From NCBI RefSeq assembly GCF_026151205.1, contig NC_087079.1, forward strand, positions 9,724,635 to 9,788,634: 64,000 bases of DNA, read 5' to 3'. The position numbers and the translations under genes were made by a program. Positions 36,501 to 39,500 of the stretch are shown in pieces. This DNA comes from Bolinopsis microptera. Lineage: Eukaryota > Ctenophora > Tentaculata > Lobata > Bolinopsidae. A model generated the notes under the pieces. That model worked only from the letters and a program-made list of their open reading frames with translations. It did no database searches and was not told where the DNA came from. How positions within the stretch are numbered: the stretch's first letter is position 1; every line of letters starts with the position of its first letter.

Positions 36501-39500
36501 ACTTTACGCTTGTCACCTCCTATATTGTTAATAGTAATACTTCAAGACCAAAAATGTTTTCATTTTATATTTTATGAACGCACGAAGGAAATATCACAAT
36601 TGTTCGTTAAATTCGAATAGACATGTCAACTGTGAATAAATTAAAATAAATGGTATGTGGTCTGACTTAAGACTAGTTAAACTCAAAGTCAGAGACCAGA
36701 GTAATACTCTGCTCACTGATATATTATGCAGATTTTGAATAATGAATTTATGCTTAACCTAAGATCAAAGCTGAACTTTTGACTCTGAGCGATCAGAGCT
36801 TTTATCTTAGGTTAAGCATAAAATTCATTATTCAAAATTTGCATAATATATCAGTGTTAACTTATCTAGTCATATTATCTTTGACTTAATATTATATTAT
36901 TAAGTTTCTCATATGTCTCATAAATTGCACCAAATCAACTTATGGACGGGTCACGATATGGTAACGTTCATAAGTATTAAGTGAATTGTATCAAGATACA
37001 GGACTGTTTGTGAATGAAAGTAAAACCGTTTTCACCAGAGTGTACCTTGCAGGAGTCTCTGAAGTTATTTATTTAAAAAAATTATTTTACAGTTCTGGCT
37101 TTCTGGTTAAATTCTTAGTCTGATCTTGACCTGATCTTGATTCTTGACCTGAAGGTTTCCACTTCTAGTCAAGTTACATGTACCATTACCGTTCTTTAAC
37201 CATCATCAGAAAAATAACGACAACTTTAATTTCTAAAGTGGAAGAGAGGAGGCCTGAGGGTTCAAGTAACAATTTCTTTTTCTTTAGGTGGAAGTGCTTC
37301 TGGAAATACAACTGCAAGAAGAAACCGCAATCACTTGCACATAGAAATTGAAAAGGAGGTTAGTTTGAGCAACAAAAACAATTTTATTGTACTGTACATA
37401 AAATTGGCTACTCTTGGATTGATAAAATATTTCAATAAAATAGAAGAATACCGTGGTATGGCTGAAATTAAGAAAAATTAAACAACCGAAGAGATACATT
37501 TTTCTTGTTAATTTTCAAATTCTGATCGCCAAATATTTATTAAACTATTTAAAATATTTATTAAACTACAACTCATAGATAAGCGAAATGCTGCAAACGA
37601 ATCAGGAATCCCTGGGAAAGAAAATACTCCGTTTCTTGAAGCGACACAATATCTCTGAAAGGAAGATGGGAAGTGATATCTGCATGGACGGCGGGCAGCT
37701 GTCTGCATTCTTGAATAACAAGTAACCTATAGTACTATAAGAAATTTACTTTATAATGACGTGGCGATTTATAATTATGTCGAGAACCCTCCTAAATCTG
37801 TGTCAAGTCACAAGTTGATTTATTGCTTAATTGCTCTCTATTCAAAGGTGGCTTTATAATTATACACAATACTGACTACTGAGTAATTATATAGCAAATT
37901 ACATTTTCATGATAATGATAGATAACTGATACAAATGATCATAATAATGACTGTTAACTGATACAAACGATCAACCAGCCTCGTCCCCAGGTGCTCGTTA
38001 ACCAATACAAACAGAGAGCTAATCTACAGTTGGTTTGTTCAGCAGAGACGCAACAGGGAACCCGAACGGTTAACCGAAGAGTATGATAGCTCAAATTGTA
38101 AGTTTTTATATTATGATTAACGTGGGGCCGGGGGGGGGGGGGGGGGGGGGGGGGGGGGAGCCGGGGGTACCCCGAATACTATGTGATTTCCAGATAGCAG
38201 TTGATTTTAGGGGGGAATGTTCACTGAATAACTAGACGTCCATTCAATGGCCGACAGGTTCATGGCACACGACAACGTAAACTATAATTTAAAGTAAAAC
38301 TAGACGTGTCAGTTTCCATTTTTATGGTTTTGTAAGAACAGCTATCAAAAATTAAATGTTGGATGTATACCATGTGCTACACAAAAATTGCTGTATAAAG
38401 CAAAAGTAAAACAATAGCTCAGGGGTCAAGACTCAAGGTGTTGGCCCAGAAAATGGAGTAAGATAATCTTTGTCCAACTTTACGATTATGTAGTTATAAT
38501 ACTGTCTCTTCTATTGTTTGCACCCACGTAGAAGCTTCTGGGGACCTCCCCTGCCCAAAATACCACCTAAGTAGTGAACAATAAAAGAGACGGTATTATA
38601 ACTGTACAGTGTACATAATCGTAAAGTTGGACATCCATTTTCCGGGCCAACACTCTGAGTCTTGACCACTGAGCTATTGTTTTGCAACGATTATAACGTT
38701 TAAAAGTGACTGTGCACTGTGTAAGGTACAGACTCGTTTATAAGACAAGAGAGAAACACCATGGAATGATGTAAAATAACTTTGCAAATGTTTTCATAGT
38801 GGATTAAATTCCTGCCCCGGTATTCTGAAGTAACCATGAACTGTGACGATAATCCCTGCCTTATAATCCCTCCAAACTGGAGGTTTATCAAAAGATTACA
38901 CAAATCTCTGATTTTTTATAACCTCGTCCCTCAGCCCCCTCCGACACAGACTCACAGTCCTCTCAAGACACAGACCTAGACGAGACAAAAGAGGAAACGG
39001 ACCCCGAGAGAGAAGACCCGGAGCTCTCTAAAGATAACGCTTCTAAAACACCGGTATGTGGTTAGGTACAGTGAGGCTGTTGTTTTGAGCTGTTGTGGAA
39101 CTGCTAGAATACCTATTACCGGGTACCCGCGGTGGTTCCTTTCCTTTGTTATTTCATCTTGATTATCTTTTATTTCAATTGAAGTATTACTAGATAATCT
39201 CTCAAAATAAATGTAAAAGTGTAAAAGATGACATTCTAGTAAATAGTAGAAAATAAAGCTACAGCATTGGCTCTGTGCCTGCTAAAAGCCAACTCTAAAA
39301 TAAAAGCAAACAAAAACTAACAAACTCGGCAGGTGAGCAGCAGTGTCCGTACCTCATCCCGGACTCCCAAACCCAGACAACTAGACCTCCCTGATGATAG
39401 TCCCCAACTAGCCAGGAAGAGGAAGAGAACTGCTACACCAGACACAGGTTCTGAAACTGGCAAGAATTCCACCCGGAAACAATATCCTAGTGAGCTTGTT

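Follow-up and report, generated by a model that had tools for sequence, protein, structure and literature searches.

The analysed stretch of Bolinopsis microptera DNA, hereafter called the window, comprises 64,000 nucleotides with a GC content of 38.0% and carries a BRPF gene on its plus strand, located at about 24.8 to 55.3 kb. With hand-chosen GT-AG splice sites, 19 plus-strand exons between positions 24785 and 39489 were joined to a frame of 919 residues without stop codon, and a three-exon 3′ part (54288-55264, plus strand), also based on hand-chosen GT-AG sites, was spliced apart from this frame. The exons and the evidence for each are as follows:

24785..25034, plus strand: BRPF exon, N-terminal part of the EPL1 region (splice model and EPL1 match; first exon located, the 5′ end possibly lying further upstream)
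25211-25326 and 25472-25582, plus strand: BRPF exons, end of EPL1 and start of PHD finger 1 (splice model, Pfam)
25765..25916, plus strand: BRPF exon, PHD finger 1 (PHD_2, E 4.8e-15)
26093-26329 and 26501-26640, plus strand: BRPF exons, extended PHD finger (zf-HC5HC2H_2, E 5.9e-35; Peregrin 6u04)
26832-26960, 27095-27223 and 28995-29144, plus strand: BRPF linker exons (splice model; the NTO1 alignment covers residues 19-500)
29327-29455 and 29644-29852, plus strand: BRPF exons, bromodomain (Bromodomain, E 2.6e-21; Peregrin bromodomain chains)
30021-30183 and 30386-30470, plus strand: BRPF exons, charged segment 3′ of the bromodomain (in phase; no family above the cut-off)
34316..34477, plus strand: putative disordered linker exon (in phase; splice scores 7.8 for the acceptor and 7.7 for the donor)
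37288..37358, plus strand: putative linker exon adjoining the POU exons on their 5′ side (in phase; splice scores 7.1/9.4)
37579..37721, plus strand: POU exon 1 (48 residues), POU-specific-like domain up to its last helix (HNF-1_N and HNF1A matches; splice scores 2.1/2.7)
37991..38097, plus strand: POU exon 2 (35 residues), last helix of the domain (HNF-1_N and HNF1A matches; splice scores 4.0/3.9)
38935..39053, plus strand: putative acidic, Ser-rich linker exon 3′ of the POU exons (in phase; splice scores 6.5/8.6)
39333..39489, plus strand: putative basic, Ser-rich linker exon (in phase; weak splice scores 3.7/2.8)
46095..46150, plus strand: tentative linking exon whose phases could connect 39489 to 54288 (one of the 11 candidates listed)
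54288-54338 and 54571-54707, plus strand: BRPF exons, PWWP domain (PWWP, E 2.2e-13; Peregrin 3l42, E 1.6e-28)
55119..55264, plus strand: BRPF exon, end of PWWP and next helix (splice model and structure match; acceptor position approximate)

A preliminary description of this DNA had taken the gene for a BRPF, and this identification was borne out. When searched against Pfam, the 919-residue protein matched EPL1 (E 9.8e-24, residues 45-126), PHD_2 (E 4.8e-15), zf-HC5HC2H_2 (E 5.9e-35) and Bromodomain (E 2.6e-21), and the separately joined 3′ part matched PWWP (E 2.2e-13); all five matches lie above the Pfam cut-off. The top solved structures for both parts were Peregrin chains, the best PDB match being Peregrin 6u04 for the 919-residue part (E 1.7e-93) and the Peregrin PWWP structure 3l42 for the 3′ part (E 1.6e-28). 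An EPL1-like motif, a PHD finger, an extended PHD finger, a bromodomain and, on the separately joined part, a PWWP domain follow one another in the same order as in BRPF1/2/3 (peregrin, BRD1, BRPF3). NTO1, the BRPF-like subunit of NuA3, aligns to residues 19-500 of the spliced protein, the reported alignment ending before the POU and PWWP regions. Using the extended PHD finger as query against the whole genome (264.65-Mb assembly, 232 contigs), four matches were obtained, namely the window's own with 100% identity and three others with 50, 46 and 34%. The weaker three may be JADE- or AF10-type relatives, which we would expect at such a distance, so that one clear BRPF gene is seen in the genome.

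The window also contains several features apart from the BRPF exons. On the minus strand, a BRPF intron contains one uninterrupted frame (27463-28308) whose match to F5/8 type C / DUF7402 is weak and below the cut-off, and the long BRPF intron harbors two GPCR-like frames, one with a 7tm_1 match of E 1.7e-5, below the cut-off (46410-47327), and one without Pfam match (47680-48135). A further minus-strand frame at 39909-40316 is similar to these by eye and has no Pfam match. At 9909-13139 on the minus strand lies a LINE-type element that encodes a reverse transcriptase domain (RVT_1, E 3.5e-31) as well as an endonuclease domain. Repeats comprise a long minisatellite at 35094-35987, in the intron 5′ of the POU exons, with a repeat of about 10 residues open on both strands, and a (GA)n microsatellite of about 650 bases at 44254-45067 in the long BRPF intron. 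A run of 29 G at 38130-38158, shortly 3′ of POU exon 2, is possibly an assembly or sequencing artefact. Elsewhere in the genome, 28 glutamate-receptor-like matches with E of 0.001 or less were found; 12 of them are in open frames of 654-989 codons that are apparently intronless there, and several are clustered on contigs C3, C6, C8 and C12. For one glutamate-receptor frame, 146 residues of the ligand-binding part matched ML032222a of Mnemiopsis with 116.8 bits and 4zdm of the ctenophore Pleurobrachia with 103.1 bits, the best kainate receptor 2 chain reaching 49.4 bits, which points to a ctenophore. Longer queries were less clear: the complete frame placed GluK2 chains first and ML032222a at ranks 11 to 13, and for a second frame the best 60 rows had only non-ctenophore names. 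A COX1 search of the assembly for a mitochondrial contig gave no match.

Between the bromodomain and the PWWP exons, the two exons 37579-37721 and 37991-38097 were confirmed, on the level of the translated sequence, to encode an HNF1-type POU-specific-like domain. The peptides quoted from them in the preliminary description are present in both exons, and the HNF1 order of motifs that it had recognized recurs in a gapless match of the joined exons to 65 residues of HNF1A (1ic8; E 1.4e-5), with HNF1B matching at E 6.2e-5. A two-sequence alignment with HNF1A showed 27% identity over 66 columns, and the motifs HNI-x-x-R, LSxxLN and YxWxV are common to both. The profile search proposed as a check agreed with this assignment: the joined exons matched Pfam HNF-1_N with E 1.6e-6 over positions 114-174 of the 175 profile positions, that is over the POU-specific part, at 29.1 bits, 0.6 bits below the curated cut-off of 29.7 bits. 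Within the spliced 919-residue protein, the match reached 32.1 bits (E 2e-7; profile positions 50-174) and thereby exceeded the cut-off, but this alignment extends into a low-complexity linker and part of the gain in score may be spurious. No N-terminal dimerisation domain was detected in the isolated domain, which matches HNF-1_N positions 114-174 only, and the longer match at 50-174 runs through the linker. PF00157, the model of the POU class, was not among the models matching the joined exons at E up to 10, a range in which HMMER drops most models above 0.1.

The HNF1A stretch was also run as query against every six-frame open segment of the window, 2778 in all, so that the two exons were scored singly. 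Here, POU exon 1 came first with 11.4 bits, more than the top score of every one of 20 dinucleotide shuffles (maximum 9.3 bits), and POU exon 2 was tied third with 6.8 bits. The runner-up, an unrelated minus-strand segment, scored 9.4 bits and likewise exceeded all 20 shuffles; the margin of exon 1 is therefore modest, and it is the joined domain that carries the argument. Since the two exons are neighbors in correct order and phase, a chance origin is unlikely in view of the E-values of the joined domain. An AF2 model of POU exon 1 only, of low confidence (mean pLDDT 69.6, pTM 0.32), contains helices at residues 12-22 and 38-46, and a Foldseek search with this low-confidence 48-residue model, run to E 10, found no match.

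We consider it very improbable that the resemblance is that of a generic helix-turn-helix or a product of convergence and does not go back to descent from an HNF1-type domain. The 27% identity to HNF1A, the score of the isolated domain just below the Pfam cut-off and the unrelated window segment that differs from POU exon 1 by no more than 2 bits would fit such an explanation. Against it, HNF-1_N was the only one of 24736 Pfam models with E below 0.1 for the joined exons, HTH_Tnp_Tc5 following at 0.46, and the match to HNF1A is gapless across the whole core and includes all three motifs mentioned above.

Whether the POU exons belong to the BRPF transcript was judged from splice sites, reading phase and codon usage. 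The junctions 30470|34316, 34477|37288, 37358|37579, 37721|37991, 38097|38935 and 39053|39333 agree in phase in six of six cases, although their manual choice took account of the phases, which makes this weaker than a blind test; among them, the three junctions quoted in the preliminary description (37358|37579, 37721|37991 and 38097|38935) are GT-AG with matching phases. Twelve of the 16 conserved BRPF exons served to train the splice-site scoring, and their sites range from 7.8 to 13.2 for acceptors and from 4.9 to 9.2 for donors. On this scale, a conserved BRPF exon outside the training set, 54288-54338, obtained 5.8/7.7, intronic AG and GT dinucleotides have medians of -1.3 and 1.2, respectively, and the acceptor and donor of POU exon 1 (2.1 and 2.7) and of POU exon 2 (4.0 and 3.9) stay below the conserved BRPF exons. 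Judging from these scores, splicing of the POU exons may be weak or alternative. Codon usage was 0.09 for POU exon 1 and -0.11 for POU exon 2, values within the span of 124 intronic frames (-0.30 to 0.12), a spread with which the conserved BRPF exons overlap. At least one further exon is required to bridge the distance between 39489 and 54288, and of the 11 candidates listed, two (46095-46150 and 49974-50041) match both phases. The connection of the POU-bearing part to the PWWP exons is thus tentative, and for the main BRPF transcript we infer that the POU exons are present.

The weak splice sites of both POU exons would also be expected if these exons made up a small gene of their own inside a BRPF intron, or were seldom used and stood outside the main BRPF protein, and the minus-strand frames inside BRPF introns as well as the unproven exon, or exons, needed between 39489 and 54288 point in the same direction. 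We regard this as unlikely, because the POU exons are on the strand of BRPF, the six hand-picked junctions from 30470 to 39333 are all in phase, and an inspection by eye of the frames on the plus strand, as far as 43 kb, showed no competing domain gene. The combination of an HNF1-type domain with BRPF is regarded as a real and unusual domain combination that is well supported by the sequence.

For HNF1A, the POU-specific residues described in the consulted part of PMC11382887 as contacting DNA are Gln130, Arg131, His143, Asn149 and Lys158 for the backbone and Gln141 and Ser142 for the bases. These residues were placed by eye on the HNF1A alignment, and all seven HNF1A letters fit their numbers. 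In the ctenophore BRPF domain, both base-contact positions are occupied by Gly, and three backbone positions are changed (Q130E, H143Q and K158N), so that five of seven contact residues are altered and only Arg131 and Asn149 are kept. A basic stretch, QQRRNRE, follows the last helix of the POU-like domain.

According to PMC2211742, a POU-like domain preceding an atypical homeodomain defines the HNF class. Pfam gave no homeodomain match in the spliced BRPF protein, neither C-terminal to the POU-like domain nor elsewhere. When the window was scanned for the third-helix motif, the minus strand gave one match at 13055, within the LINE region, and another at 5327; both were taken for chance. At E up to 0.1, the genome contains at least 133 homeodomain matches (150 of 161 candidates scored), five of them on the contig of the window and the nearest at a distance of 2.3 Mb; this search proceeded exon by exon, so that it could miss a homeodomain that an intron interrupts or that carries the long insertion of the HNF type. 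One two-piece homeodomain suspected of such an HNF-type insertion (C1:3221630-3221914) was rejected, as it reads as an ordinary homeodomain parted by an apparent intron.

With the base-reading residues replaced and no homeodomain found, we expect a DNA contact that is either without specificity or of a different one. The preliminary description had suggested that this BRPF can bind DNA sequence-specifically, and this is not supported, given the Gly-Gly at positions 141 and 142, the changes of Gln130, His143 and Lys158 and the outcome of the homeodomain search; an HNF1-like sequence-specific recruitment by the BRPF domain is not supported by its residues. That the domain would bring MOZ/MORF/HBO1-type acetyltransferases to HNF1-like sites by sequence-specific binding is therefore quite improbable. 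The shared HNF1 domain family and motif order and the presence of MYST genes in the genome speak for it, but both named base contacts of HNF1A, Gln141 and Ser142, are Gly, and a homeodomain partner was found neither in the spliced protein nor nearer than 2.3 Mb on the contig in the genome search.

We propose with moderate confidence that the ctenophore BRPF consists of the scaffold of EPL1, PHD, extended PHD, bromodomain and PWWP and of an HNF1-type POU-specific-like domain that has no accompanying homeodomain, sits in the linker preceding the PWWP domain, after the bromodomain, and adds a contact to DNA or nucleosomes. The domain would fold as a POU-specific helix bundle and rest on DNA chiefly via phosphate contacts made by the equivalents of Arg131 and Asn149, and base reading would be absent or unlike that of HNF1 owing to the Gly-Gly in place of the two base-reading residues. 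A subunit already rich in readers, which anchors a MYST acetyltransferase complex, would thereby gain one more contact to DNA or nucleosomes, and the domain may join the extended PHD finger, the bromodomain and the PWWP domain in keeping the complex on chromatin. BRPF scaffolds bind a MYST acetyltransferase, ING4/5 and MEAF6, and two of these partner families, as searched for, are present in the genome, with seven matches of the MYST domain at four places and one match of MEAF6-type NuA4.

The main rival to a DNA or nucleosome contact is a pure protein-binding role, in which the POU-specific fold was kept, DNA binding was lost and the domain acts within the BRPF linker as a module for contacts to other proteins. 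We hold it to be rather unlikely. The change of five of the seven contact positions, including both base contacts, is in line with it, as is the fact that no homeodomain was found that could lend affinity; the retention of the Arg131 and Asn149 equivalents and of the basic QQRRNRE stretch argues for the proposed contact to DNA or nucleosomes instead.

Compared with known systems, the ctenophore domain is like the POU-specific domain of HNF1A and HNF1B (HNF-1_N) in its gapless 65-residue match to HNF1A, in its motifs and in Arg131 and Asn149, and differs in that neither a dimerisation domain nor a homeodomain was found, in the Gly-Gly at the base positions and in its host, BRPF. HMBOX1, which PMC2211742 assigns to the HNF class, a class with a POU-like domain, possesses an atypical homeodomain. 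The available text of a 2022 review (PMC9454415) names for human BRPF1 the domains SZ, NLS1, BN, EPC-I, PZP, NLS2, EPC-II, bromodomain and PWWP, of which PZP, bromodomain and PWWP read histones and help to recruit KAT6-type acetyltransferases to chromatin. The POU-specific-like domain between bromodomain and PWWP is extra to BRPF1/2/3 and is not listed there for human BRPF1, and the earlier statement that vertebrate BRPF proteins have no such domain holds to the extent of this one list. In trans, a POU-domain protein cooperating with a related acetyltransferase scaffold is found in Oct4 with Jade1/HBO1 (excerpt of PMC12664036); these are two proteins, the POU domain being of the POU class, whereas the ctenophore BRPF is one polypeptide with a domain of the HNF class. 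Within the open-licence literature, as far as the accessible text extends, no report of a BRPF-POU combination was found, and a search of that literature for BRPF in ctenophores, Mnemiopsis included, found nothing.

Concerning other HNF1-type genes in the genome, HNF-1_N gave nothing at E 0.001 or at E 10 and missed the window's own two exons too, so that this search is uninformative on them, and the same limit applies to the HNF1A stretch, which also gave nothing and is blind to the window's own exons. The POU domain of the window found itself only, at E up to 10. In Mnemiopsis, according to the portion of PMC2959044 at hand, no homeodomain groups with the HNF class, and the class is present in Trichoplax, Nematostella and bilaterians. 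The origin of the ctenophore HNF1-type domain is therefore of interest and bears on the rise of the HNF class. Ctenophores may have no HNF-class homeobox gene at all and carry an HNF1-type POU-specific domain within BRPF. In that case, the domain could be older than the HNF class, with BRPF among its early hosts, its union with a homeodomain being confined to the line of placozoans, cnidarians and bilaterians, or it could be the sole relic of a lost HNF gene; this is a doubtful proposition to which we attach low confidence. For the BRPF protein itself, a transcription-factor domain inside the scaffold would give a direct route to DNA.
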